DNA of 64,000 nt from Prorocentrum cordatum (taxonomy: Eukaryota; Sar; Dinophyceae; Prorocentrales; Prorocentraceae): assembly GCA_963575745.1 (NCBI GenBank), contig CAUYUJ010008524.1:249670-313669 (forward strand), given 5' to 3'. The translations under genes and the position numbers were made by a program. Numbering within the stretch: position 1 is the stretch's first letter; each line of letters opens with the position of its first letter. Shown one piece after another: positions 1,560-62,918 of the stretch. Below the pieces are notes generated by a model. It worked only from the letters and a program-made list of their open reading frames with translations, made no database searches and had not been told where the DNA came from.

Positions 1560-1590
<31 letters not shown>

Positions 1591-6083: not shown

Positions 6084-6134
6084 CTCGTAGCCCTTCTTGT
6101 TCATCTTCTCCATGGCCGGCGCGATCTCCGCCGC
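6084..6134 (-). CDS. HSP90: HSP90 exon 13
   Basis: Phase-0 exon of 51 bp reading AAEIAPAMEKMNKKGYE. It matches the family segment 'A--SP--E-L-KKG-EV' that follows the 'TGES' motif. The acceptor is ..gccgccgag|GCG and the donor is TACGAG|GCCGCC (GC). The next expected exon (starting near 'VLY--EP-DE') is not seen in 1-6083, so this intron runs beyond the window. Confidence 0.88.
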
Positions 6135-23153: not shown

Positions 23154-26100
23154 GTCTGCCCCCCTCCTCTGAACGCCAGCAAACCCGTGACCCCGCAACG
23201 CCCCGTAGAATTCCCAGGCCCTCTCCCCAAGCCAAACGCCTCCTTAATCTCTCCCCCCCCTTCCCCCGCCCCCCCACCATCCACCGCGCCGCTGCCCCCC
23301 CCCTTTTCCAGGAGAGGGCGGGAGATGAGATGGAGGCGGCAGAGCGAGGGGGAAGAGGAGAACGGACGGGGAGGGGCGAGGAGGAAAGGGGCGACGAGAA
23401 CGCGACAATTGCACACTGCGCAGCCTGCCAGGGAGCCGCGAGGTCTCAGATGGATCTGCGCTGCCCTCACCTCCGCTGGCCCTCCCAGGAGCTCACGACA
23501 GTGGCGACACTTGCACACTTCGCAATCTCCCAGGGAACCGCGAAGTTTCAAATGGATCTGCGCTGCCCTCACCTCCGCCTGGCCTCCTCGGAGTCCACGA
23601 AAGTGGCGCCAGTTGCAGTGTCCGCAGCCACCCAGGGAACAGCGAGGTCCCACATGGATCCGCGTGGCCCCGGACTTCGCTGGACCTCTAAGGAGCCAAC
23701 GAAAGTGGCGATAATTGCGCAGTGCGCAGCCCCTGCCCCGGGTACGCCGGCACTGGGTGCCACCAAGGATCCAAGAACCCCGCTCGGAACTCCGAAGGAT
23801 GATGTTTGCGCCGTGTGGTATTATCATGAATATCATTGTTATTCGAAGGTTGGCCTCCTTCCCCCCCTCTCTGGGCCTGGGCCTTTTTCTGTGTAGCAGT
23901 GCGGCCGCGCGGGCGCGCGCCTGTCCTGGCCCTCCTGCATGCGATCGAGGTACTCGGGCAGGCTGGTCATGTTGTCGCCGCTCTTAGAGGAGTAGAACCG
24001 CACGAAGCGCTTGAGCTCGTCCTCCAACACAGAACGGGGAGGAGGAGGAGGAGGAGGAGGAGGAGGAGGAGGAGGAGGAGGAGGAGGAGGGGGAGGAAGA
24101 GGACGGGGAGGAGGAAGAGGAGGAAGAGGAGGAAGAGGAGGAAGACGAGGAGAAAGAAGAGGATCGGCAACGAGCTCCGGGGGGCACTGACATGGGGCAG
24201 GCTTCTTCACAAGGCGGCAGGGCTTCTCAGAAGCCTTCTGAGAAGCCTCGCCGCCTTCTGAGAAGGTCTGACCTTTTTCGCTTCCACCTTGGGCGCGCCG
24301 CCGAGAAACGAAGGTTCCCCCGGCCAGGGAGAAAGGCGAGGACCGCGAGGAAAAAGGAAGAGGTGGGATGGGGGAGGACGGGGATGGTGGAGCGGCGGGG
24401 GGGGGGGGCGGTTTCTGGCCAAAGTAAACCTCGGCCGCGCAAGGGTTACCGGACATGGACCCAAGGAGCGGCGCGAAGACCAGAGCCCCCCCCCCCAGCA
24501 CAAAACGGCCTGCATTTCAGCGCCTTGACTATAGGGAAATAGTGTGTCAGGAGGAGGGGGAGGAGGTCGAGCGTGCCCGAAGGGGTTCCTGTGTCCGCAG
24601 ACTCTCAGAGAACACGCCGCCTGCGCAGCAGGTAATGAGTGACTGCATAATACACTATGGGGTTGAAGGTGTAGAAGACGAACCAGAAAACAAGGAAGCT
24701 GGGACCTGGTGCAGCAGCAGCGAAGCCCTAAGTAGACTCCACATGTCCTGTGTAGGTGTCGCCACCGACCGCAATTGCTTTCAGTCGACATCGGGCTCAG
24801 GAATCGAAGCAAAGGAGTCGGGTTCCGAAAGCCCACACAAATCAGCAAGAATCTGACCGTAAGTCTCCTCCATCTGCACCAAGGCCACTATGTCATCAAA
24901 CTTGGAGTAGTCGACCGGCTTAGCGATCGGAACTACTTTTTTCGGTTGAGTGGATACCGCCAACTCAGGGCGAGCTTCCCCGTCGTCTGTGTCGCGGATA
25001 CGGCCATGAGCATGAGACGAAAGACACAATCCTTTCGACAACACCGTCGCCCGTATTTGCACAATCTCACTGCCGATGAGGGAGGATGCAGAGAATGGAG
25101 CAGCCAGCCCTGGCGAACGCCCACGTGAAACATTCCCCGCACTGGGACGCTCGCTCGACGCGAGACGCCCCTCAGCACGAAACGAGTTGTCACCAACGGC
25201 AGCCTCTGAAGTCGAAACGTTGTCATCACTCTCACGCACGCGACCAGCAACACTCGAAATGATGTTGTTGTTTTTAAGTTGTTCACCATGGCCTCATCGA
25301 TAGAGGAAACCATTTTCGACACCACCTGCTTGAGCTGGACCTCATCAGCAATCTTGGTGAGGCCAGGGGGAATGTCTTCCCATAGGTTCATATGCTGATT
25401 CATAAGACCATTCACAAACTCTCGAGCCTGATCTTGCCCCCCTGTCACTTCTGTATCCTTCCAGCGTAGACGGCGCCACGGTGGGGCGGAGGGCCTGGTG
25501 GCGTGCCTGGGAATGGTCCAGGATAGGTACAAGACTGTTAGACATTCCCAGACCGCTGGCGCCAAACGTTACGTCACCAGGGCTGTTGGTGTGGGCGGGC
25601 CCCGTGGCGGCCGCTGCGTCGAGAAATTCAAAACGCGCTCCTGCTTCCCCCTCTCCGTTGCTCTTCGAAGAAAGGTGAGACCAACAATTTTCTATCTCTG
25701 GCGCAGGTTTCCTGGATCGGCGCTGAACCGTTGCTGCCTCGGCGCACGGAGCGCGCCGGGGGCGGCGCTAGAGGCGGCGCCAGCGGGGTCCAGCGCCGAT
25801 CCGGCACCCCTCCGCGGACCTCCGATTTCTTCTTCTGATTGCCTTTGGCTTGGGGCCCTTTTGGGGTGGCTCTTGGGCCGTCTTGGGGCGATCTTTGGGG
25901 CCTCTTTGGCCGTCTTGGAACGTCGGGAGCCAGAAAAAGTGAGAACGCTATACTCAAACGAACCGAGGACCATGAGTCGCTTTGGCATCTCGGGGCCCTC
26001 TTGGGGGGCAGCTCGGAGCCCTCTTGGCGCGTTGTGGAGGCCTCTTGGGCCGTCTTCGGACCATTGCCACGGAGCGCTCTTGGACCATCTTGGCGATCTT

Positions 26101-29100: not shown

Positions 29101-32100
29101 GGATATCTCGATCCTCGATCGATGACGGCGGCGACGGCGACGAGCGGCGCGGGAGGAGGCCGGCAGTCGCAAGGGGCGTGAAGACTTCGGCGATTCCTGG
29201 ACTCGTGGTGGATCTTCTGGGTATTCTCCGGACTCTTCAAAGAAAGTCCAAAATCCACCTCGCCAATGATTTTGATTTCTACCACGTTGGGCGTGTCTGC
29301 CATGGCTTACCTGTCTTCATCCCTGCACGTCGATTAGAGGAAGGTAAATTCAAGTGCACCGAAGAGGGGGGCCAAACGATCCAGGCACTCCCGGGAAGCC
29401 CTCGACGAGGCGTAGCTGTTGGGAGGCACCCCGGAGCGAGAAAACCTCGTAGAGCCAACGAACGTTTCCTCCCCCTCCCCCCTTCGACGGCGAAAGCGTT
29501 CTCATCCACACCGCTTCAGCGGGCGAAGAACAGTATACCATCAACTACCGGGCGATCGGGGACGCCTGTCCCCGTGCGGCTGTTGTATGCCCCGTCCGCG
29601 GAAAAAGTGTATTCTTCCGCTTCTCTTGGACACCACCGGGACTCAAGACCTTCGGCCGGCAGGGTGGCGAACCGGGTCCTTGTAGTCCAGGTCCTCCACG
29701 AGGCCGACCTGGGGGGTGGTGGGGAGCAGCGGGGGGAAGCGGGGAGCGCGGGCGGCAGCCAGTGGCCCTCCCACCGCTCCTGCCCCTCCTCGTCCAGGAG
29801 GGGAAAGAGAAGGGAGGGGAGGGGGGAAGAGGAAGAGGGGGAGAAGGAGAAGGACAGGAGGGGAAAAGGGGGAGGAGGGGGAGGGGGACACAACGACGAA
29901 CACCTCAAGGGGCCCAAATGTGCGACACAGCTACCTCGCATATACAGCGGCTGCGATTTTCGAAGGCAGCCGTAGGACCAGCATACTGCCGAGACTTCGG
30001 GCATCCTGCAGCCCAGCTGGCCTACAGAGTTCGGTCAACCCCGATCATCCAACAACACAGCGAGCTAGCAGACAACGACGGACAACAAGCGGGGGGGCGT
30101 AGGGAGAAGGAGCGAAGCCAAAGCGGGGGTGAGCCCGAAGAACCAAGAGAGCGGGGAGGGGAAGCCAGGAGGCAAACACAACAGAGAACACTACAACGAG
30201 GTGATACACATGCCACAGCTGCCGCATTCGAGCGCGTCCAACAAAAAGATTTTTGGTAATCAGTACACGCCGCTTGCACTCGAGACACTCAAGCCCGCTC
30301 ACCCTCGTGGAGACGTCCTGTCGCCACGAGTCCAGCATGCTGATTCCAGGATAAAACCCGGAACCATCCACAGACCCTTTGAACTCGACGCAGATCGCTT
30401 GGTAGGTCATCGCCTTCTCCATATCGCAAGTCAAGCCTGCGTCCAACACGATCATGGGCCAACTGAGATTATGCTCGTCCACGGTGGGGTGAGGGGTGAG
30501 ACGCGGTATTGGTGTGGACGGTGGCCATCAAGCCCTCCTTCATGCCGAACGCGTTGTTGTCAGCCTTCAGCTCAGGAGCGTGGCCGTTGGTGGCGCACGG
30601 AGCGCAGGAGACGCAATGCACGTCGGTATTGTAGGTGTCGTGGTTCATGCCCCTCGAGATGGTGCGGTTGTCGCCCTTGGCCGATGCCGAGCACACGACC
30701 GTCTCCTCGTCAGCCTACAAGTGCGACTGGATCTTCTCGTCAATCACTTACACGTCCGGAAGCACCCATTCGTAGTCCGCACGGTGCTCAGTAAAGGGGG
30801 CCTCGTTCGGGACTCGGGTGTTCGTGTGCCGCGCCTTCTTGCAATCGATCGCCGAGAACTTCCCGTCGGTCTTGGCCCTGACGTCGCTGCAGCCGTAGAT
30901 GGGATCCGACGAAACGACGTGCGTAGGGACGTCAGGTGTTCCGCATCTCAATCAGCAAGCATGCACCAGCGTGGGCTATTGTACATGTTCTTTATGGCGG
31001 CTGAGGGGCCCGCCTGATGCAGTCCAGGAGGAGGAGACGCAGCCATCGGCTTGAAGATGTTGACGCTCGCCTCCTTGGACTTCCTCGCGTGGGTGCGACG
31101 CGCCCTCGCTCGTCGAAGCACGAGTGTGGTCGGAGATGTACCCGCGGAGGCCACACTGGGCGGCGGAACATTGCGGGGCCATCGGCAAGGAAGCATTGCT
31201 GCTGGGCGGGGGGGCCGTCCTTTCCGCACGGATCGGCCATGGCGCGGCGCGCGCGACGCGGCACCTGCGTCCTCCTGCTGTAGCCGGTGCGGCTAGGGGG
31301 AGGAGGAGGAGTGAGGAGGAGGAGGAGAATTAGGAGAAAGAGGAAGAGGAGGAGGAGAAGCTAGGGCCCCTCCCCCTGCTCATTCTCATCCTCCGCCTCG
31401 CCAGTGAGTGAACCCCTGCCCTCCTCCTGAGAGGGGGGGGGAGGAGGAGGGGGAGGAAGAGGGGGAGGAGGTGAGGCGGAGCGGGGGGAAGGAGAAGGGA
31501 AGGCCCCCACGCCTCCCCCCCTGTCAACGGTGGCTTTCGGCGCTACGACAGGCACGAGCCGCGACAAGCACCACAGGAGCCCCCTCGTCGCCACACGACG
31601 GGGGGCCGCGGGAAGGCGGCGGCAGGGAGCTGGGCAGCCGCGGGTGGAGGAGGGCGCGCGAGAAAGCCGCCCCAGAGCGCGCGCCGCCGCTCCTCGGCTG
31701 GGCCGGTGGGCGGGCAGCCCAGGGCGTGGCGTGCCCCGGCACCACAGGGACGGGGCCCTGAGGCACGCACAGGCCTCCGACGGTGTGATGTTCTCGATCT
31801 GGGCGTGTCTCCTTCCGCCTGCCCGTGAAGAAGTCCATGCACGACGATCGCCTGGTCGCCTGGGTGCCGGAGGCACGGGCCTCGATCTTCCCCCCGAGTT
31901 CTAGGTTGGCACGGTCTTCGGGCCGATCGCGAGCAGCGTAGCTCCTTTCTCTCGGCCCTCGGGTGCCGTTTTCCGCCCGCGGGGCGATCAGAAGTGGGTC
32001 GGGGGACGAAAGACTGCCCTGGGGGAAGTGGTCCGGACCTCTGAGGCAGCGGATTGGAAAAAACAGATCGGCGGATGTCTCGGTGGGGCCCTAGGACGAG

Positions 32101-38100: not shown

Positions 38101-41100
38101 GCAGGGCTACCATCCCTGAGAACAAGAACTATACCAAATGCACCTCGCGGCTAAATCTGGATCATGCGAGGCCACCCCGCGAGCACTGTCAAGCGGTTTT
38201 TGATATGGCCTCCTGCGCGCAGGCCCATCAGACACAATGATGGGCATTGGTTTTCAACAAGGATGGCGGGGGCCGACTTTTTTGCCGATGTGTACTGTCA
38301 CGTTTGCAGGCGCACCTGACATACTCTGCACGTGCCCCGAACGTGGCGCACCTGGCGCGGCTGGAGTATGCAGCACACCTGGCGCACACGGAGGAACGTG
38401 GCATATCTGGCGCACCAGGCGTGCCTGGCACGCTCGGGCCCCAGGGGTGCCTGGCGCGCGTGGCGCGCATGGCACGCGTGGCGCACTTCGCCCCAGCGTC
38501 GCGCACATGGGCTCGGTTTTGGTTCTCAGTAGCTGCACATCCAAAGACGACCGCTGAACATGCTGAGGCTCGGGTGTTACTTGTGTGTTGGGAGGGCGGG
38601 TGGGAGTGAGCTAGACGGCTTGCTATCTAGGAGGGTGTCTTGATCATCCCCCCCACCCCGCCGCCTTGTCTGGATCTCCTGAGCCGCCACTGTCCGACCC
38701 CCCCACCGTCCCCCGACCTGCTCTTCTGCAGGATCTCTCGGCCCACGTTCAGGGGCAGGTCCTCAGAGTCGACGACGCCTGCCAACAGGGGGGCGCGCCC
38801 GCGTCAAACAGGCGGCAGAGCGAAGGGACTTCCGACCACGATCGAACCCAGTGCAGATCACACCCAGTGCACGGAGTGAAGTGGCCCTCGGGCCTTCTCA
38901 TTCGAACCAGCCATTTCCGCGCGCAGACGGCGGCACTTCCTTCTATGGTCCGCATAACGTTCGGTAATGCCAGCGTGTGCTTGTCCACAGGTGCCCCGAC
39001 TGTGTGCAGTCGAAACGTGGCCCGAAGGACTGCTGGGGGGGCAAGGCGTGCCGAGGAGGGGGTGGCCCTCCTCCTCCATTTACAGTGTACAGTAGACACG
39101 TTTCCACCGCAACGCTGTGACGTCCAAGCGAAGCAGAGAGAAAAGCACCATGCAACGGCAACATCCACGCGGGTAGTCGTGCAAAAGCCAGAAGGAAAAG
39201 GAGAGACGCCCAGAGCGGCGTCAAGAGGCCTTCTCCACCTCCTCCTACTCATCCTCATCCTTCTCTTCCTCCTCCGTCCGTCCCGTACACGCAATTCCTC
39301 ATCATGCTCCTCCACTTTCTCATCCTCGTTCTTCTCGACCCTATGGAGAATTTTGGGTCACCCGCAACGCCCTGGAACCTTTTACGAAAATCCTCCCCCC
39401 GCGGCCCGAAAAGGACTCCAAATCCGTCACGATGTTTGTCGCATGAGGGAGACTGATGAAGTGGAACACCCTGGGGGAAATGGGATAGATGCAGGGGGAA
39501 ATGATAATATTGCTGTCGATGACCTCCGCAGCGATGGAGAGGAACATGAATACCAAGGTGCCTCAACTACGCCCATATGGGGAAGCGCGCTCTGGAGATT
39601 ACATCTACGAAGCATCCAGCGTCGAAGCCGGCAATGGAGTGAGGGAAGTTCAAACCGCCGAGGGCGGCATTGGCGTACAGAGGGGATGCGGCCGCAAGAA
39701 CACCCCGCAAAGAAACCAGCCCTGAAAATCCAAAAAAGCGTCTTGCCCAGAGCCTGGGTGTCCTGGCCAAGCGCTCCAATCGGAGAAACCCAAGGTACCA
39801 TGGCCCGAGAAATCCCTCCCAGAGCATGAAAAGGAAACGTGCGTGGTGCGGTTGGGGGAGGCAAGCAATTTCTTACGGATGGGGGAAGTCACAGCGCATC
39901 GCCAGGAACGAAGAAACCCAGGGCGGCCCGACGAAAACCATACGGTTTCGTGGCGCGCGTCCCCACTGCAGAAGAAGCACAGGCAATGCATCCACAGTGA
40001 GCCCAGCCCCTTGATCCGCCGAGAGACGGGGGGCCAGGCGCCCGCTGTGCTACGATGCGCTTGAGGAGAGATGGGAGCGGTCGCAACCTCTCGCGGTAGG
40101 GCCGTCGGGAAGAGGCGGGGGCAGAGCCAGTCGGGCGCTTCCGCCACCTACTCGGTGTTCGGCGCCGTGGAGGCTGGCCGACCCCTCGGCGCGGACGCGG
40201 CTCGTGGTGGCCACGCGGACCCAGCCGCGCGAACGCAGCTTGTCCCACTCAGTGTCGACTCGCTCGGAATCGTCGAGATCGGCCTCGATAGCTCATGGAT
40301 GTGCAACTTCTCTCGGGTGGTGGACAGATAGCGCTTCAGCCAAACACCCCTGCGGCTGCAACGCCTTCCCGAGGACCGAACATTGGCAACTCGCTGGGGA
40401 GGATTCGTGTCGTGACGACTTTGGCGTGGGTTTCGAGCACCGAGTGGATCGTACAATCTTGGACGATCGGCGGCTTTTCCGATCGACAAACCATTCAATA
40501 TTAGACGATTCTGGGCCACTGGCGGCGTTCAGCCAGGAACGCCCGCGGCGAGGTCGCCACCGCGTCGATACGGCGCAAACCTGCCGCGGCCGCGCTCGAC
40601 TAGGCAGGATCGGGGTGTCATCAACCTTTAACGTTTTGTTTCTTCGGCCCACTGCTTCCATGAGGGGGAACGTTCGCGGGGGAACACCCGACCCTCCCCA
40701 CCAACCGTCGATTTTCTTGAATCGATAGGAGGCGGGGGTAGGGTTCGAAGTTCGCCACGTGTGCGACGAATTCTCGACCCTACCCCCTCCGCCCATCGAG
40801 TTGCCCGAATCGTTGATCGGAGAGGGTAGGGTTCGGACTTCGCCGCCAGGGGGAGGAGGGGGGGGGGGAACATCGACTTGAAACCGCCGATACATCGGCG
40901 ACGGGCCCCCGATAGCGAATCCGCACGCTCCCGGACGGGGTGGGGCTATCGGGCCCCAGTCGGCGATCAATGGGCGATTGGGGGTCGATGCGTCCCCCCT
41001 GAGCCTCTCCCCCCCAAGCGTTGCCCCTGAGACGTGGCAGGGTCGGGGTTCTATCAACCGCCGACGCGTTCTGTTTCTTCTGCTCCCTGCCCCCAGCTCC

Positions 41101-44100
41101 CAGCTCCCCTCGGGTGCTCGCTAACGGGGAACAATGATAAAAGTTGGGTGAAGAAACGTGCGCCTTTCGTACACATCATGGGCCGGTGGTGGCAATTTGG
41201 GGACAGCTTGGGGTCCCTGAGGGCCACTTTCCTGCAGTCCTCGATCCCTCCCAACTGTATTGCTTCTTGCCAATGCCGTCCGCCCAATCCCCGGCCCACC
41301 TTCCGTGGCAACTCATGGGACCCCCCCATGCCGTCTTGCTGGCTCTTGCAAATCGACGCCAAGTCGACGCTACTTGACGCTGAATCGGCGCATCCTCATC
41401 GACCACCAGACGCTAGCGCACGCTCACGCACGCTGAAGACGGAATTTCGAGAACATACAAAACTTCCATGAATTGCTACCGAACCTGGGGGAACCTAGAG
41501 GTACCGATACCGCTACTCCGCGGACCTCTCCAGGCGCGCGTTCTGACGAGGATTTCGGGGCGAATCCAGCGGTGGAGACGAGGGCTCCCCCGAGGCCCAA
41601 AAAGCCGAAAGCGAGGCCAGCGTAGTGATGTTGGTACCTGTTCCCATCCCCCTCCTCACAAGGCCCAGCGCTGTGCCGCGGCGCCTCGCACGAACGTCAG
41701 CCAGCGGGGGATCAGGTCCTCGCGGGGCCGGCGGGCGCCGCGGGAGGGCAGCGCAGGAGGTGGGAGGTGGGGGGAGCCGGCAGGCCGGGAACCACGAGCG
41801 GTGAACGTATCTGCAGAAGGGCTGCTGAAGTGAGGGACGCTAGATGAAGAGCGAAGTCCCTTTCTGGCGCCAACAGCCTCTGGGTGCACGAGGAGGGCTA
41901 GATCTAGGAGCAATCACAGAATGACCTGAGGAACAGCGAGCCCCTTCCGAACCCAAAGCGGTCCTTGTTCCACTTGTCGCTGTCTTGACTGTAGGTCACC
42001 CAACTTCGCGCCCCCGCGCTGTGATAGGTGTCCTTTGATAGGTTTAGCATATTGATCTTTCTTGTATAGCCCAGCATTCCAGCTCACGGGGCAGCCAGGA
42101 TTGTCCGCTATGACACTCAGGGAAGGTTGTACTGTACTTCGTCGTTCTGGCTCAAGGCCAAAAGTACATCTGTTCATCCTGCTGCTGCCACAGTTGGTAG
42201 CGGAGCAGTGTTCGGCGCGGCCGGCATGGGCGCTCCTAGGCACCGCTAGGCAGCGGTGGTGCCAGGAGCAGCTCGGGCTGCTGCGCGAGCGCTGCTCTCA
42301 TCAAATTGGACAGAGCGCGGATCCACGGCAAGAGTATGCCAGCAGACGACGAAGACGGCAGCAAGAACTACGCTGTGATCGATCCAGGGGGCACGCAGCA
42401 GTCGGGGACGACTGCAGGCGGCAGCGCCCCAGCTACCGGAGCTCAGGCTTCGGGCTCAGGCGGCCAGCTGCCAGATCAGCTCAAGGAGTTGGTGCAGCAG
42501 CTCGTGCAGGAGGCGCTGGGTCCGAGACAGGGCGGCGGAGCTGGAGGCGCAGATGATCGAAGCAGCGGGCGCCCCAGCGGCGATCCAAGCGGGCGAGACA
42601 GCTCCCGAGGCCAGGACCCGTGGAGCGACGCCGGCCGGGACCCCTGGAGGCGTGGAGAGCAGCCGGAGTCCAAGGACGGCGGGAGAGATCAGTCGGATCA
42701 GCAGCAGCAGGAGTCGAACTGGAAGAACACCGACTGGAAGGACAACTCCAACTGGAAGGACTCCGGCTGGCAAGGCTCCGGCTGGGCCGACGGCGGCGGG
42801 TGGTCGAAGGGGGACTACTCGGACCCGCCCGCATGGCCCGGCTGGGGGCACTACCGTTTGTGGAAGAAGGCCATGCAGCGCTGGAATCGGAACACAGATG
42901 TGCAGCTGTGGCGGCGCTCCGAGCGCTTCCTCAAGCTGTTTGACTGGGCGATGCAGGCCAAGTTTGAAGACATCAGCGAGGGCGTCCTGTGCAGCCAGCA
43001 GTGGTTGGACACCCTCCTGACCAGGATGGACATCATGAGTGGTGAGCGCGAGGGTGACGACATGCGACGGGCAGGTCGTCGAGCTCTATTCGAGTGCACC
43101 CGCGGCGCCAAGGAGAGCCTCACACAGTTCGTGGCCAGGAGGGAGCAGCAGATGCAGGAGGCCGAGGGTCACGACATCTGGATGTCCAACCGGATGAAGG
43201 GTTTCATGCTCGAGGAGGGCGCCGGTTTGGGCGCTCAGGGCCAGCAGAACCTTCGAGCGCTGACGAAGGGCAGCCTCGAGTACAGTGACGTTGCCTGGGC
43301 TCTCAGGCAACTTGACTACGGCAGTGGCGAGAAGCTGCTGCCCGGCGGCAGCTCGTCCCATCCCGTCCTGGCCGCAGAAGACGGCCTGGGCGACGGATCC
43401 AGTTCCCCTCCTCCTCCTCCCTCCCAGGCCTATCCTGCCCTGGGCTCCGGGACTGCGAAGCAAGACGACGAGTCGTACTACGACGAGTCAGAGGAGGGAC
43501 CAGAGGAGGAAGACGACGAGCTGTCGGAGTCGGACGTCATGGCCATTTTGGCAGAGATCGAAGACCTCGACCTCGAGGAGGACGAGGCCACAGAGGCGTT
43601 CATCCAGATGACCGGCAAGGTTCAGCGCCGGTCCTGGAAGCAGAACAAAGACCTCAAGCGGGCCGCCAAGCAGGACCGCGAGTTCTACGGAGCCAGGCAG
43701 CCACGCGGAGGCGACGACGGACACCGAGGAGGCCGCGGAGGTGCCCGGGGCAAGGGACGCGGACGAGGTCGCGGAGACCGACAGCGAGGACACGACGGCA
43801 GCTCAGGCACCAACCCGCGGATCCTTCGACTGATGAAGGTGACCCGTTGCAAGAACTGCAAGGAGAAGGGCCACTGGGCCCGGGAGTGTCCCAATCCCCG
43901 GAAAGAGGATGATTCTAGGCGCTCGGATCGACCTCGCCGAGGCATGACGGGCTATACCTTCGACGGGTGCAGCTTCCCCATTCTGAGCTCCGACGTGATC
44001 GAGAGGCTGAGGAACCTGCAGGCGGAGGTCGAGTCCAGCGACGTCTACCTGAACGCCGCCGTGACTCAGGGCCTGGTGGACCCGGGCGCGGGGAGCGACA

Positions 44101-47100
44101 TCGTGGGGCTGCCTTCGCTCAATCGTGAGTCAGAGGCACTTGCCAAGTACGGCCTACGTTACGTGGTGGTGTCCAGCGAGTTCAAGGCACCCAAGAAGGC
44201 CCACGGCATCGGAGGCGAGGCGAAGGTCCTCTGCACCATCCTGTATCCGTTGTGTCTTGGAGGAGTGATGGGCGTGGTGGAGACCACCGTTTTGAACGAG
44301 GACGTGCCGCATATCCTGAGCGTGAACTTGCTAGACTTCCTCGGCTGTGTCTTGGATTTGCCGCGCAATCTTCTGATCTCGCAGTATCTGTCACAGGATA
44401 TCCCGGTCACCAAGCTCGGATCGGGCCATCGCATGGCAGACATAGTGCGAGAGACACGCGGCAGCCACGAGGCTCCCGAGAGTGCGCTTCAGAAGTATCC
44501 TTTTCTGACAGCATCTTCCTTCAGATTGCGGGCTGGCCAGGCACCGCCTATGATGAGTGCCAGCGGAGAGGTGACTGAGTACATCATCGTACCCATCCTC
44601 GTCATCACCATCCCCGGTCACCTCGAGTCCGTGCAGGCATCGATCGGGCTCGAGCTTAACCGCACGAACGGGTCACTAGCTCAGCGGGCCAGATTAGAAC
44701 GGGTTAGGGCCTCGGGATCCCCTCAGAACACTAAGGACGAGAAGATGATCAGCCAAAACAAGGTCACGCGCAAGATCAGAGAGACCGGAGACCCCGACTC
44801 CATCAAGAACGGCACCGGAGCTCTCGAACCCATCGCGAGGATGTGCCGTAGTGCCTCGGCCGGCCTCAGGAGGAGTCTCGGAACCCTCGATCCCATCGTC
44901 AGCAGTGCTACGTCGCACCTCAGAGCCCTCGGCCTCAAGATGGCCAAAGGTCTGATGCAGCTCCTCTGTCTTTCCGTAGCGACTTTGGGCTCGAGCTTGT
45001 ACCAGCGAATCGCTCCAGCTTTCGACCCATCTCAGTTCAGAACTCGTATTCACAGTTCCAGTGATGCTCGCGCCGTGCGCGGCGATCATTCTCGCTCTGG
45101 CCGTGCAGGCCACAGCGGGCGGCAAGAAGAACCAGAAGAAGCCCGGCGCCAAGAAACTCACCGAAGAATTACTGGCACGGCGCCAGGCCAACGGTCAGGA
45201 CTCGGACGTATCCTCGGAGGCGTTCGACGGCTCAGCATTCTCAGTCGGGCAGAGCTTCGAGCCCGGCGCGGCAGCCGCGGCAGTCAGCGGCGACGTGCAG
45301 ATGGCTCCTCAGCCACAGCAGGGAGCCGGCAGTGGTGGCGGTCAGGGCCAGACTCAGCAGACGGTACCGACGATGGCTGCACTCAGTCAGCAGCAGATGC
45401 TGGAGCAGTTTCAGCAATTGTCGAACCCGATGGGACTGGGTCCTGGGCAAGCTATGGCGATCCCGACGGCAGCTACCGCGACAGCGCCACCAGCGACAGG
45501 ACCGACTCCACCGAAGCCCCAGCCGTCGCTGTGGGGAGCTGCAGCTGCGGCGTCTCAGTGGCCACCCCCGACACCGATCCAGGGATCGGCGCAGCCGACG
45601 ATGAGCCAGGCGATCTACGCTCTGGCCTCGGCGGGAGCCGAGCAGCGAGGGCAGCCCCCGCTGCCAGCGGGTCCGCCTCCACCAGAGGCGGCAGCAGCGG
45701 CGGCACCGACACCCCCAGCCGGGGTGTTGACGGGACCGGCAGCCACCAAGCCGCCACCCAAGGCGCCGCCGTATTGCAGTCACCCGGCCAGCGCCATCCG
45801 CTACTACGGGAATCAGCACGGCTCTGGCTCTCGGTGTATGATGTGCGGCCAGAGAATCGCGTGGGTCCCGGGCGGCAACCGCGTCGGGCAGGACGGCCAG
45901 GCGGCGCCCACAGCAGCCGAGGCGGCCAGGGCAGCAGCATCGTCCGCACAGAAGGCTGTCGACCTTCTCCAGAACGATCCCCAGTTCCGAGCCGGAGGGG
46001 CGGCGTTGACAACAGTGAATCAACTGTCTGGCTTGTTACAGGGCCTGCAGTGGCAGCTGGAGTCGATACCCGAAGGGGTACGTGCCCTCAGGAACGTGCA
46101 GAGCGTCGTCGATCAGATGATCCAGGTTGCGACGCAGACTGCGCAGTTTCCCAATCAGGTGGAGGAGGGGCTGCCGCAACTGTTTCAAGGCATGACGGCA
46201 ATCAAGCGCCAGCTGCTCGGGCTGGAGGACTTCGGAGTGGCGATCGACACTCTTCAGGAATCGGTCAACACGATGGCCGGGACGCTCTCGGGGATGGAGA
46301 CCGCGATCGGGCAGATCGGGTTCATGCTCGTGAACGTCGGCACGGCAGTATCGGCGATAGCCCACGCGATCAACAACGGCCAGCAGGTCGAGGCGCAGTG
46401 GGACGCGGTGAGGATGCAGCAGGCGGCAGCGGCAGCGGCGGCCAGCCAGGCGGCGGGCTCAGGCGCGGGGCAGGCAGCGAGCTCAGCCTCGGGGCATCCG
46501 GAGCACTTCGGAGCAGTCCAGCAGCCTCCGCCGCCTCAGGCGACCTTCGGGACGGAGCCGGACCTTCCAGCCCAGATGCCGCCGACGCCGACTCAGAACC
46601 ACGAGATCGATCAGGGCGGCGACCCGTGGCACACGACTACTACCACCACCACCGAGCAGACGGCCACGACTACGCCGACGTCGAACCTGGCTCCGATCCC
46701 GGAGCAGGGCCTCGAGTCCTGGGAGATCCTCAGCAACAGCTCAGGACCAATCGTGTGAGATGCTCGAGTACATGCAGCACTCCCGGGACCGAGCCAAGGG
46801 GCCGGTCTCTGGGCCTTTCGGCCGCCTTCGCGAGCGGCAGTTGCTCACTTTCTGGACCCTGCACGCGTGCGGGGGTAAGAGAGAGTGCACCTACCTCCTC
46901 CGATTTGCCTCATTTCTCTCCTTCTAATCTCAACTCTCGCTCTCTCGATGCTCCAGGTGATATTCCCTCCTCTTCCTCCGGTCCGAGTAGTCAGTCGATT
47001 CCAGTTTTCCCGACGTTCGTTTCGCGCAGGGGGACCTCGTCACTCTCGGCTGGACGCGGCACGAATAACAGGATCGCCGGAGCACAGCTCCGACGGAGGG

Positions 47101-50100
47101 CCACCGAGGACCAGCGGCCCAGGAGTCCGACTGGGGGGAGTTTCGGAGGCCTCGAGTGGCAAGACGGGGACAACACGAATGATGATCACGAGGTCGCACT
47201 GCCTCGACAGGTGCGAACGGCTCTCGAGTCTCGCGCGAGTGCCGAGAGTGCTCAGGAGGACCCCGGGCCCGGCACCTACCTCTCGGGCAGCCGAGGAGTT
47301 AGTTTCATGGAGGTGTTTTCTCCACCTCGCATCGCTCCTCGCGTGGAGCAGAAGGGGGGTCGTCTGGGGGCCAAGTCGAGCTGGGACCTGAAAACCGGTT
47401 GGGATTCGCGCAGGACGAGTGACAGACGAGAGCTCTGGGTTGCCATCGGAGAAGACAGGCCAGAGATGATTTGGCTCTGTCCGTCCTGCCGTACCTTTTC
47501 GGCGATAAGTAGGATCAGTGAGGCAGTGCGAGACCCCATCAAGTGGCATCAGGCTGTGGTCGAAGGAGTAAACGACCTCATTTTGTGTATGAAGATCGCA
47601 GCCTATCAGGCCGAGAGGGGTCGCTATTTCGCCTTCGAGCATCCGTTGTTTGCCAGCTCTTGGGCAGCCAAGGTGGTACGGTTTGTGGCTCAGCTCCCAG
47701 GTGTTCGACGGATCCGGATCGATATGTGCACCTTCGGTCTCAGAGTCACTAAGGAGGGCCTCAACAAGAAGCCCACGGGGCTCCTCACCAATCATCTGAG
47801 GCTGTCGGAGATCATGGATGGCCGGCTGTGTGCCGGCGATCACCCCCATGTCATTCTCGAGGGCAAGAGCCGCACTTCCAAGGCTCAGGAGTACCCCCCA
47901 GCGTTTGCCGAGGCGGTAGCTCGTGCGGTGACGGAGCAGTGGAGTGGTGCCAGCGTGTCCCGAGCGCCCACATGGGCAGAGCTCGACGAGAGCCACTTTC
48001 CCGAGGGCGGAGAGGAAGGCGGGCGGGAGCCAGAGGACCTAGAGGGTCCCGAGGGAGCCAGCGGAAGCGAAGACGACGAGCCAGAGACTCGTCCCTCGGG
48101 TCCCCGAGCCAAGGATCCCTCGCCAGAACCCACCGAGGAGGAGAAGCGTCTTCTCTTCCGCCTTCATGTCAACATGGGCCATCCCTGTAACCGCAAGTTT
48201 ATCAGGGTCCTCCGGGCCGGTGGCGTGAAGATACACCTGCTTCGCTGGATTAGGGATTCCTTCAGATGCTCCGAGTGCGCAGAGCGGGCCCGCACGAGTG
48301 TCCACCGAAGGGTTGCGCTCCCACGCACGTTTAGGTTTAACCACATTGTGGGGGTTGACTTGTTCTACCTTACCTTTCAGGAGCGGACGTTGGCCTTTCT
48401 CAACCTAGTCGACCACGGCTCCAACTTGCAGGTGTGCGTGCGTGTGGAGGAACCTACCGCTGTTCAGGTCTGGCGAGCGTTTGTCAAGGCCTGGGTCCGT
48501 CCTTTCGGGGCCCCCCACTTCCTGCTTTCCGACGGGGGTTCCGAATTCGAGGGTCGCTTCGCTCGAGGACTCGAACAGTGGGGGGTCCTCCACCATGTCT
48601 GCGACGCCAACTCGCCCTGGCAGAATGGCCGTGTGGAGCGGCATGGAGGCTGGGTTAAGGATAGGATCAAAGGCGAGATCGAAGGTGGGTCGGGTCTCCC
48701 AGGGAGTGTGGACGAGCTCGAAGAACTGGTGTACGAGCTATGCGCTCACAAGAACCGCTTCTGGCACCGAGGAGGCTTTTCTCCGATGCAGCTCGTGTTC
48801 GGTGAGAACCCCCGCATGCCCCACGAGTTGTTATCGGACGATCACATGGGCCTCCCTGGTTGGCAGGACGCCATTCGACCCGCTTCGGAGCTTGATTCGG
48901 CCGGCTCCGAGTTCGCCAGGTCTCAGCGGGTCAGAGAGCTCGCTCGCAAGCTAGCTCTGGAAGCGACTGCTCGAGACAAGGTCGCCAAGGCGAGTAAGGC
49001 CCGTGGTCCCGGCCAGGCCCAGGTGTCGTTCACTCCAGGCCAGTGGGTTTTCGTGTGGCGCCGCATGACGCGGGCGGGGCCCCGGGCGGACACCTTGGGA
49101 CGTCGACGGGACGCCTGGACCGGTCCCGGGGTGGTGGTCCTGGCCGAGCGAGGCACCGTGTGGGTGGCGGTACGCGCCCGCCTTTGGAAGTGCTCGCCAG
49201 AACAAGTCAGGCTCGCCAGTGCGGAAGAAGAGTACGGTCTCCAGGTCGCCCAGGACCCGCGCTGGAAGGAGCTCCTGACCCAGGCCCAGGCCAGGCGCGC
49301 TACCGCTGTTGACGTACAGAGAGAGGGCCCGCCCCCTGACGACGCCTGGGACGAACCTCTGAATCCCGGGACGGACTCGGCGCCTAGCGTGCCCACTGGT
49401 CCGGAGCCTCCGCCACGGCCGGATCCGTCCGTCGAGATTCCTGCGGGGCGGCCCCTGGGTCCTCCTGGACCTCCGATGGTCCGCCGAGGTTTCGACCCAA
49501 TCGGACCAGGGCCTCCGAGGACCCCTACGTCGAGGCCTTCGTCAGCAGGAGGGTCCGCCGCGGCAAGGGCCGGGTCCGAGATCACTCGACTCCCGTCCGT
49601 CATCGAAGAGAGCCACGACGGAGACGAGGAGCCTCTCACTCGCCAGGATACGCCAGAGGCAGAGGAGTCTCCCGAGTCGGCTGTGGCCGCCGCCTCTCCT
49701 TCCGCTCCTCCGTCGGCCTCTCCTCTTCCCTCTCCTTCCCCCGTCCCGTCTCCGGTTTCCCCCTCTTTCTCTCCTGCCTCTCCCGCTGCCGCCGCCATTG
49801 ACGCCGCCGTGGGAGGAGGAAGGAGAACGCCCAGAGGTCGGCTGCAACAGCCGAGCGATGTTCCCGCCTGCATCCGGCAGAGGCAGGCGGAGACGCGGGC
49901 CGCCAGCTGTCCCCCGGGAGTTAGCGACTCGAAGCGAGCTAGGATCGAACCCCCTCCGGGTCTCGAGCCGACCGAGGCGGTGCCAACCGCGACCCACTCA
50001 GACGCCAGCACCTCCGAAGGGGGACCAGGCCAGGTAGGTCGGAGGGTGCAGGAGATCGAATCGCGACTCAGAGGAGACGGGTTGTGTTCCTTTTTGGTGG

Positions 50101-53100
50101 GAGCCGAGGATGCGCGGGTGTTCTTGGTTGAGGAGGCTTCTCAGGATCACAAAGAGGTCCTGGCGGCCAGCCGGGGGGGAGAGGTCACTCTGAGCAGGCT
50201 CACTCCAGCTGAGCGGGGGAAGTTCGAGATTTCAGATGACAACGAGTGGCAGAGCATGGCCAGTTCTGGTGCGGTCGAGGTCATTCCGCCCCGAGAGGCG
50301 AAAGTGATCAGAGAGCAGTGCCCCGACCGTATCATCACGAGTCGGATGGTACGGCGGTGGAAACCCGTGGAGGGCACCTTTTCTGAACCAACCGCCAAGT
50401 CCCGGTGGTGTGTGCACGGGCACAAAGACCCAGACACCGGGTCGTTGTTTGTCTACTCTCCCACTCCCCAGACCTCCTCCATTCTCATGTTCATCCAAGT
50501 GTTGATGAATCTCGGACACTTCGGCGATATCGCCGACGTGAAGAATGCCTTTTGCCAATCAGATCCCATGAGCCGTGCTCAGGGAGAAATATACGTGGAA
50601 CCATGCGAGGGCATCAAGGTTGAACGGGGGTCCCTGATTCGGCTTTTGGTGAATGTCTACGGACTTGACGACGCACCACTTGCGTGGCGCAAAACAATCG
50701 TCGGATATCTCAGGACGAAAGGTTTCACTCGCAGCCTCCTGGAACCGTGCTGGTGGATGAGATACGCCCCCGACGGCACCCTCCTCAATATGGTGCTGCT
50801 AGAGGTGGACGATTTCTTCATCTCCAGCAACTCCCAGGAGTCCCGGGCCTGGATCAGAGACACGCTCACCTCCAGGTTTCGCTTCGGCAAGTATCGGGAC
50901 TGTCACGCCGGGGCCGTCGAGTACGCCGGTAGGAGCGTCACCATCGGGCCTCAGAAGACGACAGTGGACCAGGAAAAGTACATCCTGGAGGAAGTGCGAG
51001 CGATCAGTCTTGAGCGTGGGCGTCTTGGACAGAAGGACTCCCCCCTCACTCAGCCAGAGTTCAAGGCCCTTCGGTCCCTCATTTACAAGCTGAACTGGGT
51101 CGGGCGGGAATCCAGACCGGAGGCCGCAGGAACGGCCAGCATTTTGGCGAGTCGCCTGAAAGCGGCCACTACCCGGGACGTGGCCGTCGCCAACAAAATG
51201 GTGAGGTACCTTCGGTCCACGGCCTCGAGGGGCTTGACGATCTGGCGTCTCGATCCCGAGAAAATGGCGTTTGTGTCTTTTTCCGATGCGGGGGGAGTCG
51301 GGGCCCATGAGGGCCTCCTGGACGATCAAGGTCTGCCCGCCGATCCCACGCAAGGGGCCTGGATGGTTTTGGCGACAGACAGAAGCGTGATTGATAACTG
51401 CGCTGTGAGAGCGTCCACCCTGGGTTGGAGGAGCTCTAAGCTCCGCCGTAAGGTTACATCCACCCTCGCAGGCGAGACCCAGGCACTGGCACAGGCCGTG
51501 TCTGAGGTCGAATTTCTTCAAGTACTTTATCGCGATGTAGTTTTTGGAGATGTCGACGTCTCGGACATGTCTCGATGCTCCGGGCCTTTTACTACGGTCC
51601 TGCGTCGGGACTGTCGACTTGGAGGAAGGGAGGACCAGGTCCACGTGGTGGACGCGAAGAGTATATATGACACCATGTTAAAAGAGGGAAATGCCAGCGC
51701 ACGTGACAGGAGGACCGCTTTGGATTTGGCAGCCGTGTGTCAAGCTCTGGAAGGAGCTAGGGGCCACATCAGGTGGGTTCCTCACGCCCGTATGCCAGTA
51801 GACAGTCTGACTAAAGACGACATTAGCAAGGGAAATGCCGCCCTAGGCAGTCTGCTCGCCACCGGCCGTTTGGTCCTCGTGGACGAGGACGGAGAGATGT
51901 CTCGTCGCAAGCACGACCCCGGCAGCAAGGATCGATCCCACGCAGCGTCCAAGAGAACGCTGACCCAGGACTCTCGACTCATCTCGTGGGAGGACTTCCA
52001 GTCGAGCTACGCAGTGTCGGAGTCCGGGGATCCAGGATCCTCCTCCTCTCTCTCCCTCTCTCCTTCTCCCTGAGCACTGACTTATTTGTATAGCTACTGT
52101 TTTGCCTATAGGGGATGCTAAACCTAGGAGAAAGTTTCACCCATGTGATAGGTGTCCTTTGATAGGTTTAGCATATTGATCTTTCTTGTATAGCCCAGCA
52201 TTCCAGCTCACGGGGCAGCCAGGATTGTCCGCTATGACACTCAGGGAAGGTTGTACTGTACTTCGTCGTTCTGGCTCAAGGCCAAAAGTACATCTGTTCA
52301 TCCTGCTGCTGCCACAGCGCCCTCGCGCCGCCCCCGTGGAGAAGGACCACCGCTCTGGCCCAGACCGCGACGCGCGAAGCGTGATTGTTTTGCGCAGCTG
52401 GTGACCTAGACGTATCCATATCCACGCCCTCGAGGTCTGGACTCAGGGGCACGATCCCTCCGTCAGATTGGGCCCCAGGGAGGCAAAAACAAACAAGCAT
52501 CTGGGCAGGGTGTGTTCCTCCCTGGGGCGCCCTGGGATAGAGCGTTAGCACACGACCAGTCATGCACAGCACTCTTCGTCTGCTGCCAATCCACTCCGCG
52601 CGCATGATGCCCGCTTGTCGGGCGTTGCTTTGGAAGGGAGGGGGCGCAACAGACGGGGGGGGGAAGGTGCACATTTCGTGCACATTCTTGATGGGGCGGG
52701 CATTACAAGCGGCGGCCCAGCAGGGCCCCATTCCTGCAACCCTCGATTACCCCTTGCCCCGTTTCTCTCGCCCCCGACGCTTGCTGTGCGCAGCCATCCC
52801 GACTGTCCCGGGGAGAGGCAGGCGTGCTGGCTGAAAAGCCACGCTGCGAGGGGCAGAGGGGCAACGTGACAGGAGGAGGGGGGGGGAGCAAGCAGGGCGC
52901 GCTCCAGCCATATCCGACATCCTACCCCTTCCACACAGCCCTTCCCGTTGCGCTGAGTTCTCTCTATGCGCCGACGGGTGTCACGACGGGTGTCTGCAGA
53001 GGGCCCCATCGTGGCATGCGCAATGTGACTGCCTGTCGTAGTGGATGAGCATCTTCATCAGCAGGATAATCTCAGCCACATTCGGTGCCTGCTGCAAGCT

Positions 53101-54166: not shown

Positions 54167-54235
<69 letters not shown>

Positions 54236-54993
54236 GTTCCTGTCCTCCGCCTCCTCCTCCTTATCCTCCTCCTCCTCCTCCTCCTCCTTCTCCTCCTCAT
54301 CATCACCACCACCACCACAACCCACCGTCATCATCATCATCAGCATCATCATCAGCAGCATCCGCAGCATCATCATCAGCATCATCATCAGCATCATCAT
54401 CAGCAGCAGCATCATCCGCATCATCCTCATAACCATCATCTTCATAATCAGCATCAGCATCAGCATCAGCATCAGTAATAGCATGCTTACCATGATCATC
54501 AACGGCAGCATCAGACGCATCAATTGCTAAAGCAATACAGTCATCAACAACAGCATCAACAGCATCAGCAACAGCATCATCACCTACAGCATCGAACTTG
54601 TCAGACATATCCGCAACATCATCAGCAACCTCATCACCATCGTCATCATCATACGATGACGACTACCATCACCATCACCGTCACCACCACTGCCAACATC
54701 ATCAGCCTCAGCAGAATCATAACCTTCATCAGCATCAGCAGAAGTATCAGCAACACAAGCATCATCATCAACAGCATCATCAAAGACAACATCAAACTCG
54801 TGATCATCAGCATACGTAGCATCAGCATCAACAGCACGATCGTCGTCAACACCAGCATCATCATCGTCAGCATCATTATCACCATCAGCATCATCATCAG
54901 CAGCATCATCACCACCATCATCATCAGCAGCAACATCCCCATGGTGATGACACTCATCACCATCACCACCACCACCGCCATCAAAATCAGCAC

Positions 54994-55024
<31 letters not shown>

Positions 55025-58000
55025 GTCATCATCATCATCATCGTCATCATCATCATCAGCATCATCATCATCATCATCAGCATCATCATATTCAGTATCA
55101 TCATCAGCAGCAGCATCGTCATACTCAAAAGCACCATCAAGACCAGTATTGTCGTCGACAACATCGTCATCCTAACCATCATCAGCATCACCGCCATCGT
55201 TACCAGCAGTATAATCACAATCTATTTTCACAATCTGCACTATCAGCAGCAGGCTCATCATCATCATGAACATCAGCACCACCATCATTCACCAATCAGC
55301 ATCACCATCGTCAGCATCAGCATCAGCATCAGCATCATATTGATACTCAGATTGAACTTCCTCTCCATCGTCATCTGCGTCGTCATCATCCTATTCGTCG
55401 TCACCCTCTTCTTCCATGTACGTTAGACCGACTTTGACCACTGGCCCTTGATATACGCATACCCGACATGTTCCTCATCTTCCACGTCCCCCCTCTTCCA
55501 CCCCCCTCCTCCTCCTCCTCCTCCTCAAAATGGCCCTTTTCCTCCTCCTCCTCCTCCTCCTCCTCCTCCTCCTGCTCCTCCTCCTACTGGGACCCACATC
55601 GGGCCTTTCGCCGCCGCCAACCCGCCGCCGTCCCCGTCGACAGCGGCAGGCCCCCACGCTGCTCCTCGAACTTGTCGTTGATAAACACGCGCTTCACGTA
55701 CAGCCGCATAGCCCGGCCGCCCTCCGAGAACATGTCCTGAGGGCGCGCCCTTTGTTTTCAAGAACTGTTGGTTCGAGCGACGCCCTCCAAAGTACGTGAG
55801 GCGGGATACCCAGGGAACACCGGGATCCTTTAGGCCTGGCGGCCGCGATGTGCAGGGTTTGCGAGGTGGGCCAGGAGCGCTCGTCTCTTAAAACAGAATC
55901 GCCCCAACATGTCGGGTGGGGAAACTGTGAAAACACAAGCCGACGGAAGTCCGCGCGGATGTCTTGGACCAGCGCTGGACGGTGGAGGATGGGCGCAGGA
56001 TAATCAGGACGGCCCGGAGAGTCCGAGGACGAAAGGGCAAGCGCGCAGTTATTCTGTACCCATTGCTCGGCTCTTGATTGTAGATCGCAGTGTGCCGCCG
56101 GGTAACGGCGCGCACGAGGGGCTCGGGCGAGGGGGATGACATTCTGAGAAGGCGGTGGGCCTTCCGAGCCCCTCTTTTGAGGAGCCCCCGAGCCCTCCTG
56201 GAAGCGCCACTCCTTGGAATATTGTTTCTCGCACCTCTACTCCGCAGGCGGTAAACCGATTGCTCTGAGAATATGTGCCCAACCTTGTCGCATTCTAGGC
56301 ATAGGCGAGGCTGCGGCCATCGGAGGCCGAGCGCAGAGAGAACTCAGAGGGAGAGGGGAAAAGTCAAAGGAGAAGGCGATGGACAAGAGCCTTAGAAGGC
56401 CTTGTCTGCGCCGCCATTCCCAGCCCAGCGGGAGACCACACACCAACCGTGTAACGGCTGCACACACGGTGACACTTCTGGTCATGCAACCCTCGGAAAT
56501 CTAAAGCGGAAACCTAATGTAGAAAAGGAGACCCCATCCATGCGTCTAGCCATTACATCTGTTCAACTGTATGGCATGGCCTTCAGGTGTGAGGAAACTT
56601 TCAGCGAGAGCCACACTTTGAACAGGAAAGGGGATCCTCAATCCTTGTTATTGAAGCGAGAGCCACATTCTGGCAACTGCTATACATTCGTAAGACGGGT
56701 GTGAGCGGCACGAAGGCGAAAGCCCAAGTTTCAAAACCACCAACCCATCCATCCTTGTAACGACTGCGAGCTTTGAAGACGAGCGTGCGTGTCACCGAGG
56801 CGATAGCCCCATTGTCAATACCACATCCATCCCTCCAACTGCTGCAAAATTCACCTTGTGCTGCCGAGATTAATGCCAAAAGGTAATAAAGTTCAGGGTT
56901 GCAGGGGATTATACATGTTGCCTACCGGAGGCCAGCATGTGGGAGGGGAAAGAGATGATGTTAAGAGGACCGAAAGCCGAGAATCGAGGATCGAGAATCG
57001 AAGTCCGAGGATCGAGGATCGAGGATCGAGATCGCAGAGAGTGAGAGAAGGAGACACAGCCAGACAGAGAGAGAGGAGGAGGAGGAGGAGGAGGAGGAGG
57101 AGGAGGAGGAGGACGGAGGAGGAAGAGGAGGAGGAGGAGGAGAAGAAGGAGGAGGAAGAGGAGGGAGGAGGACGAAGAGGAGGAAGAGGAGGAGAAAGAG
57201 GAGGAGGACAAAATCCAAAGTTCCAAACCTATTGAATCTCATTTGCAAACGAACAATGGAAATCTGGATTTTCATCTGCTCGTGTAGGGAAGATCATGTG
57301 CCTCGGTTTCTATGGATAGTAAACCACAGCGATCGCGCCCCTGACCAAACTCTTGTTGGCCGTAGATAATCAAGTCTAGCGTGTTAAGTGGGGGGGTCCT
57401 TCTTTATCATCGGCACACGGTTATGATGTGAGTTTGCGCGGCGCTCTGGCGGTAGCCCCATCTTGAAAACCACCACCCCTTCAATCTAGCCAACTATTCC
57501 CCGTGTGTCCGGGGCATAAACGGTGAGGAAGTCTCAGGCGAAACGCCCAGCCCCCCCTACCAGACCCCCTGGGGGGAGGAAGGAATGGAGGGATGGACAT
57601 GGAGAGGCACGCCCCGCAAAGCCCCGATCCCTTGTGAGCTCGAACGGCATGGTGCTTGGAATGAACATGAGCGCGCGGAACTCGATCTGGCCCTCCACCT
57701 GGAGGCCGAGCAGAGAGCAGGGAGGGGCGGAAGCAAAATCGGTCAACATCGAATCGGAAACCGGCTCGATTCGGAACTCGCATAGGATCGGGATGCATCG
57801 TCGCGGAGTGAGAAATGAGATCGGCTCAACTGTGCCAGGATGAACAACAGCGCCACACAAACTCGTCGAAAGATCGCAATCGAGTCAGATCGGGCCGGCC
57901 GGAATCGATGTCGGATCGGACCGATCGGATCGAAGTAGGCCCTGACCGTTCGGGAACGCTCTCGGCGAAGCACAGATGTCGGAGCGCATCCCGAGGCAGA

Positions 58001-61000
58001 AAGACAGAAGCCGACGAAAAAGTCCACAAGCCCGATCTTGGGAGCCAGCGAACACCGAGTCACCTGTCGTGCCTCGCGCGCCCGCAATGCGCGCGGCACC
58101 GCGGCCATCCTCCCGTGAGGAGGAACGTCCAGGGGGGGGAACATCGACCTGAAATCGGCGATACGTCGCCGAAAGATCGGCGATGGGCCCCCTGCATCGA
58201 ATCCCATCACTCCTGCGCAGGATGGGCACCAGGCCCCGATGGGCGATGGACGGGCGACTGAGGGTCAGTGCATCTCCCGCTTGATCCTCGCCCCCCCCCT
58301 GACGTTGCCTCTGACTCGCGCGCCCGCGTGGCGCGCGGCGCCGCGGTCACCCTCCCGCCCTCGCGCCTGCCGCCCTGGAGAGGGGCACCTCTGCGACCCT
58401 GGGCCGCGGGGCGCAGAGAGGCGACCCCATCTTCGCGGCTTCGCGGGCGACCTGGAGGAAAAAAGACGAGATCGGCGGTTCAACGATGGGGCTCTGAGAG
58501 ATGTGCCTGAGGGCGAGAGGCCTCAAACAATGCAAATTCAACCTGGGATCCTCTCTTGTCCAGAGGGCCTCGTCCCTCAGGGCCCCAATTGTGAACCGCC
58601 GAAAGTAAAAGGAAAGGGCAAGGAGAGGGGGAGGAGGGAGGGGGATCGATCGCCCCCCTGTTCCTTGGTCCTTGGGGGACGGAGAGAGGAGGGGACAAGG
58701 GAGGAGGAGGGGGAGAAGCACACGGCGCAGGGCGGGGTATGAGGCGGAGGAAGGGCGAAGAGGAGGAAGCACCGCTCCCCCGATGGAGATGAGGGAGATG
58801 GCTCCTCCACGTCCGCGCCTACTTCTGGAGGCCCCTCGGGGCCTCACCAAACTCTCGGAGGCCTCTGGAGGCCTCCGGAGACCCACCAGGAACCAAAAAC
58901 GTCCACAACCTCCTTCTCCTCCTCCTCCTCCTCCTACTCCTCCTCCTACTCCTCCTCCGTTTCGTCTTCCTGCGCGACTCAACGCTCCACGAAGAGCAAC
59001 CGCCTCTTCGCACTCACCCACCCGTGCCGCCAAAGCGTCGGAGCGGCCAGGGAGGGTATCGATATGGCGGGCGGAGGTCGGCGAACGTCAGCTAGACGCC
59101 TTTTGTGCAGACGTAGCCCGACATCTGGCCAGGGGGGGAACATCGAGCTGGAATTGGCGATACATCGCCGATTGATCTGCGATGGGCCCCAGATAGGGAA
59201 ACCACACGGTCCTGGGCCAGGTGGGGCCATCCCGCCGCGGTCGGCGATCCGTGAGCCAGTGGGGATCGACGCGTTTCCCCCATGAGCCTCTTCCCCCCCT
59301 CAGCGTTGCCCCGGGGCTCCTGCTCCCGTCCTCTTCCTCAGCATCCTCGTCGACGACGACGAAGACGCGGCGGGCAGGGGCCCTGGGAAGGGGACGGGTT
59401 GTACACCACGTCGCCTGGTCGGCTACGGAGCTCCGTGTAAAGATGCCCCAGCTGCCCAATCTGCAACCTGTGGGGCGCTGGAGCGTCTATGCACCGAACT
59501 CCTTCGACGAACTCCTTGGCTCCCTGGCCGACCAAACGACGTGGTGTATACGCCCAGCCCCTCCGAGGCCCTCTCCGCTGGGCAGCCGCAGCGAGGAGCC
59601 CGGCGCCTTGAAGTGCGTCGTCGTCAGGGGCTCGTCGAACGCCTGCACGCGCATCGCGGCGCGCGGGCTCGCTGGCCAGCAAGGAGGCTGCATGTGGGCA
59701 GGGAAGCGCGGGGCGGTTTGATGTGGTGATCGCGATGGAAGCCATGGCGGCAATGAACGCAATGGACGCAATGGACGCGATGGAACGGCAGGAACGCCAT
59801 GGACGCGGTGGACGCGATGGTCGCGGGCTCGCAAGATAGGAAGGGGGAAATCCGACATACGACACCGTGCAACGCCGGCCGATCTCAGGCAGCTGGTGGA
59901 TTCGCAACAAGGATGACTCTTGGCCAATGCGTCCTGGCGACGTGCGGCTGTATTGGAGGAGCCGCCGCAAAACTAGAGATCAGCAAAGGAAAGGGGAAGA
60001 GGGACGACGACGGGATGTGCGAGAATCGCGTCCATGCGCCGCACCTCAGAAAACAACACCTGGGAGAACTTCGCGAGGACGAATTCAGGGCCACTGAGCC
60101 CGAACCCAGGCAGGGTGGCAGGATGGGCCGAACGCTACTAGATCCGCCGCCCCCTGTTGGCTTCCCACAGGGGTGCCCGGCGTGCTAGGTCTTTTCGATG
60201 TTGGTTATGGTTCTTTTCCCAAAGAACTACTCCCCCTGGGGCTTCGGCCGATCCCGCCAGGTTCCCGGAATGGCCCCGAAACCACCTCAACGACCGGAAA
60301 ATCGCCAAGACGGCTCAAGATGGCCATTATGATGGTCGCGTTGACCCAAGATGGCCTCCAAGATGGCCCAAGATGGCCTCCACGTCGCCAAAGATGGTCC
60401 AAGATGGCTTCCAAGACGGCCTGAGAGGGTCCAAGGCCGGTCGCAGGCTGCCTCCTGATGCGGGCCGGGGGCGGCGCCCGAGACGCCGCCAGGGGGGGGC
60501 CCAGCGAGGACCACCGAGGAGTGACACCTGTGTCGCAGTGTTCTTCTTCGAACTGCGTCACCCCTGGGGAAATGTTGCAGACAGCTCAGGCCCTCAATTC
60601 GACCAACCGACCAATGTAGTATCGTGGCCGACCGAGATGAGTCGCTTCGTCCAAAAGATCTTGCAAACACGGCCTGACACTTCCCTCGCCTGTCACGCGC
60701 GGCACCGCGCACAAGATGGGGCGGCGCGCCTTGAAAGTGGTCTTGTAGAACTCCGTGTACTCAGACTGGTTGACCACCTGCGTCGGGGGTTGCTAAAGGT
60801 GTCCCTGGCTCAAAGTGTCGTAGCCTCTCACTCCGTCTTGGAATCCCTGGGCCCCCATGGGCCTCTTAAGGAGCGCCATGGAGGCCCTGCGGGTTCTCCT
60901 TGAGGAAGAAGTCCTGGGAACACCGTGGGCCAAGAACGCTTCTGGCAACACACGACTTCGCACTCCTGGGGAGGAACGAAAGGGGGGGATAGCAAAGGGT

Positions 61001-62448: not shown

Positions 62449-62489
<41 letters not shown>

Positions 62490-62918: not shown

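Follow-up and report, generated by a model that had tools for sequence, protein, structure and literature searches.

An HSP90 middle domain divided among thirteen short exons over 57 kb of the Prorocentrum cordatum genome

Exon map and reconstructed coding sequence

The window (the whole stretch of DNA analysed, 64,000 nucleotides, from the bloom-forming alga Prorocentrum cordatum) contained on its minus strand 13 short exons of an HSP90 gene, numbered here in the order of the protein. The first of those seen (62877..62918; VMNKMKPIWLRNPE) was followed by an intron with a GC donor. Exons 2 (60730..60777) and 3 (59607..59642) presented a CAG|G acceptor and a GC donor, and exons 4 (57630..57698) and 5 (55665..55736) a CAG|G acceptor and a GA donor. 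Exon 6 (41685..41718) had a GAG|G acceptor and a GC donor in phase 1, and exon 7 (38718..38778) a CAG|G acceptor and a GT donor in phase 2. Acceptor and donor were GAG|G and GC for exon 8 (34663..34699), CAG|G and GT for exon 9 (33348..33431), CAG|G and GA for exon 10 (29679..29708), GAG|G and GA for exon 11 (23926..24021), which had a trinucleotide array 17 nt upstream, and GAG|G and GC for exon 12 (21388..21423). The final exon of the window, exon 13 (6084..6134), began after a GAG|G acceptor. All 13 were placed by spliced alignment; exons 4, 6, 7, and 11 were also located by tblastn.

The lengths of exons 1 to 13 were 42, 48, 36, 69, 72, 34, 61, 37, 84, 30, 96, 36, and 51 nt, and the GC content at the three codon positions was 0.52, 0.32, and 0.94. 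An initial annotation of this DNA had described 13 micro-exons of 30–96 nt in the correct order, strand and phase; spliced alignment recovered all of them on the minus strand, with the outer borders (62918 and 6084) exact to the base. The 232 contiguous HSP90 middle-domain residues that it had reported were confirmed on the joined exons, which formed a stop-free frame of 232 codons, and recomputation returned the same coding total (696 of 56,835 bases, 1.2%); gene family, strand, phase, exon borders, and coding fraction had thus all been given correctly. The accompanying statement that the exons were hidden among microsatellites held for exons 1 and 11 and failed for the others, when proximity was defined as a tandem array of TRF score ≥150 within 50 nt of the exon.

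Spliced alignment and controls

Exons were delimited with a spliced protein-to-DNA aligner written for this analysis, which permitted GT, GC, and GA donors and AG acceptors and slightly favoured AG|G, so that splice-site statistics obtained with it are partly imposed by the permitted sites. A tblastn search of the window with a yeast Hsp82 sequence detected, amid many low-complexity matches, five HSP90 fragments, all on the minus strand and at successively lower positions. The spliced protein alignment proposed as a check in the initial annotation was then carried out with HSP90 relatives and yielded the 13 exons at the borders described above. With P0001 (an unnamed P. cordatum protein product of 788 aa, encoded on a contig of 501,190 b and the top match among predicted proteins) as query, the 13 exons were obtained with no fillers. 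P0005 (an MMETSP transcript-derived HSP90 of 765 aa, full length, with an N-terminal leader, and from another copy or strain than the window gene) gave the same 13 exons, the last one 6 nt longer, and spurious filler only beyond both ends.

The 232-residue parts of P0005 and of P0013, used as queries, each gave 13 exons covering residues 1–232, with scores of 992 and 939, respectively. The controls scored far lower: shuffled (14) and reversed (2) queries gave 115–145, and aligning the two parts to the plus strand gave 139 and 131. A chance alignment was therefore rejected. A plant organelle HSP90 stretch used as query placed spurious fillers between the true exons; it had been intended as chloroplast HSP90, and its best named matches were plant HSP90-6, mitochondrial. 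The word LGERVQ at position 12024 of the plus strand was taken as a chance occurrence.

Predicted protein and homologues

The 232 residues of the window were identical to residues 128–359 of P0001 (232/232), because of which the exons had evidently already been joined by a gene predictor. The gene had been thought to escape annotation, its exons being beyond the reach of ORF callers; this view was rejected, as P0001 carries all 232 residues contiguously. P0001 matched PF00183 over its residues 66–472 (E 1.2e-148). It is itself a prediction, which may rest on protein homology. According to the sequences and to Pfam the greater part of its N-terminal ATPase domain is missing and it diverges from P0005 after about residue 476, and both of its ends, which lie outside the window, look mispredicted against P0005. 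The latter protein carries the N-terminal ATPase and the C-terminal dimerisation domains, regions which in the window gene lie outside the window. No 6-residue word from the first 127 residues of P0001 or from its residues 360–480 was found on the minus strand of the window, although words split by an intron would escape such a search; the introns flanking exons 1 and 13 therefore probably run beyond the window, extending over no less than about 1.1 kb and 6.1 kb, respectively.

Among the 120 homologues listed, the next best were P0003 and P0005, each 95.3% identical, the latter over 232 residues with no gap. Counting P0001, 99 of the 120 spanned 230 or more of the 232 residues gap-free. The label P. 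cordatum was carried by only one of these 120 proteins, the sole member of its 90% cluster. P0103, which bears a Skav locus label, had in-frame insertions at four places in this region, two of them exactly at introns 5 and 7 of the window and the other two 2 and about 4 codons away from window introns, a weak hint that the insertions may mark conserved intron positions. Thirty phage records showed below 60% identity with P0001, and the three listed were htpG or unannotated.

Intron length, borders, and content

The 12 introns measured 1,087–15,253 b (mean 4,678, median 2,704). Ten of them were in phase 0, one in phase 1, and one in phase 2. Donors were GC in six cases, GA in four, and GT in two, and the acceptor was AG|G in all 12, as in dinoflagellate spliceosomal introns with their GC, GA, or GT donors and AG|G acceptors, a pattern here partly imposed by the aligner. 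Introns of the P. cordatum genome average 4,709 b in Table 2 of PMC10666404, and the same paper reports donor proportions of 51.4% GC, 23.8% GA, and 24.7% GT and an AGG acceptor motif at 79.7%. The window gene resembled the typical gene reported there in mean intron length, donor use, and acceptors; it differed in its exons (mean 53.5 b vs. 239.9 b) and in gene length (at least 56,835 b vs. a mean of 24,462 b). Because mean length and donor use match these published genome means, the introns count as average for the species as described in that paper; it is the exons that are short, hence the many introns per coding base.

Introns of P. cordatum are stated in PMC10666404 to be enriched in introner elements, recognised there by inverted repeats of 8–20 nt and direct repeats of 3–5 nt located no more than 30 nt from each of the two intron ends. 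Inverted repeats of 8 nt near both ends were present only in introns 8 (33432–34662) and 11 (21424–23925), 2 of 12, and each was equalled or exceeded by 1.5% of random internal pairs. Direct repeats of 3–6 nt occurred at the junctions of all 12 introns, as AG|G-like borders on both sides would produce.

Intron 5 (13,946 b) contained a Copia-type LTR retrotransposon at 42020..52317, on the plus strand and so antisense to the gene, with the paired LTRs and the RVT_2 reverse transcriptase by which Ty1/Copia elements are recognised. Its two LTRs (42020–42193 and 52144–52317, 174 nt each) were 100% identical, which suggests a recent insertion, and a single open frame of 3,255 codons (42306–52073) included RVT_2 (E 6.8e-12) and a CCHC knuckle (E 5.4e-5). 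This 10.3-kb element makes up 18% of the 57-kb span.

The introns were rich in simple repeats, trinucleotide arrays being common in them. Long imperfect TCA/CAT trinucleotide arrays were observed at 54328–55122, 62332–62831, and 63316–63981, the second of them ending 46 nt from exon 1. The window held 102 ORFs of at least 150 aa, and none of the 14 other long ORFs tested, outside HSP90 and Copia, had a Pfam match. Two plus-strand ORFs in intron 12 (8703–9419 and 11591–12286; 238 and 231 aa), non-repetitive and lacking a Pfam match, are possibly remains of mobile elements. Scans of the window returned zero Rfam families at gathering thresholds and zero tRNAs.

Class of HSP90

When compared with solved structures, the 232 residues matched Hsp90 structures with E values down to 3.1e-77. 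The best score (262.6 bits, 50.2% identity) corresponded to the middle domain of the apicomplexan Plasmodium protein in PDB 1y6z, which we take to be the apicoplast HSP90. Scores below it hardly separated the HSP90 classes (226 bits for chloroplastic HSP90-5, 214–225 for cytosolic Hsp90s, 217 for Endoplasmin, 182 for HtpG, and 155 for TRAP1). Endoplasmin/GRP94 and TRAP1 were rejected as the nearest class on their 217 and 155 bits vs. 262.6 for 1y6z, with the caveat that Endoplasmin scores close to cytosolic Hsp90.

A midpoint-rooted tree of 29 rows (24 proteins hand-chosen from 240 fetched, the window, and four references, Endoplasmin and TRAP1 not among them) grouped the window with 1y6z and secondary-plastid algae with support of 99/99, although 1y6z is on a long branch and its placement was flagged as unsure by the tree tool. 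The window was separated from the Leishmania and yeast Hsp90s and from plant HSP90-5 and -6, and plant chloroplastic HSP90-5 clustered with plant HSP90-6 and not with the group of the window. A hydrophobic stretch with a nearby phenylalanine is expected of a dinoflagellate plastid leader. In the relatives inspected, taken with no control set, the hydrophobic N-terminal stretch was found in 10/10 and a nearby F in 8/10. The gene is most likely the plastid HSP90 of dinoflagellates, its targeting being judged from these relatives.

Discussion

With high confidence, the locus represents a nuclear P. cordatum gene of the HSP90 family, of which the window covers the middle part; the plastid HSP90 is its most likely identity, and 12 introns of dinoflagellate type interrupt it. 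These spliceosomal introns, with GC, GA, or GT donors and AG|G acceptors, divide the coding sequence of the conserved middle domain into 13 short exons, and splicing of a long pre-mRNA in the cell would yield an ordinary chaperone mRNA. Simple repeats and mobile elements, the Copia insertion among them, have filled introns whose length is normal for this species, and it is these introns that account for the 57-kb span.

Two other explanations were weighed. The exons could belong to a silent or decaying copy, the expressed gene lying elsewhere, for example one yielding P0005-like transcripts; P0005, from the transcript set, does differ at 4.7% of the 232 residues, and gene duplication is reported in PMC10666404 to be frequent in P. 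cordatum. We consider this very unlikely, since the frame stays open for 232 codons in 13 pieces with GC at third positions of 0.94, splice borders are found at 12 of 12 introns, and the single P. cordatum protein among the 120 homologues listed forms a 90% cluster of its own. Even less credit is given to the idea that the 57-kb spread is partly an artefact of assembly, with unrelated stretches joined between true exons. Introns rich in simple repeats do mislead assemblers, but all 13 exons are ordered on one strand and the mean distance between them equals the average intron that PMC10666404 gives for the genome.

A length of more than 150 kb for the whole gene is a plausible extrapolation; scaling the rate of the window to a protein of 765 residues gives about 187 kb, by arithmetic only. 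We suggest only tentatively, and would not bet on it, that the complete gene exceeds 150 kb, a length at which a heat-shock-family gene would be far too long for fast transcriptional induction and would have to come under post-transcriptional control, and that its micro-exons would be recognised through AG|G on both sides instead of a GT donor.

HSP90 genes with many introns have already been published for dinoflagellates. The Amphidinium carterae gene, cited in PMC4430677 with 25 introns, is intron-rich like the window gene and is described there as a tandem array, and the Cochlodinium gene has, in the same paper, one intron of 454 b. An intron of 26,372 b in a dinoflagellate is cited in PMC11453091. 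The word HSP90 does not appear in the main text of the P. cordatum genome paper (PMC10666404), and a literature search on dinoflagellate plastid HSP90C returned no paper. What had made the gene sound extraordinary in the initial annotation did not withstand these comparisons: its mean intron equals the species mean in PMC10666404, a predicted protein at NCBI already contains its exons joined, and a dinoflagellate HSP90 gene rich in introns is in print in the sources cited. The gene is already known in kind and already annotated in part.

Over the middle of the protein, P0001 and the spliced alignment agree; the ends of this public model could be improved by using full-length relatives. The picture of dinoflagellate gene structure is unchanged by this gene, which is normal for a long-intron genome; it provides a clean and checkable case of coding sequence being diluted to about 1% in a large dinoflagellate genome.
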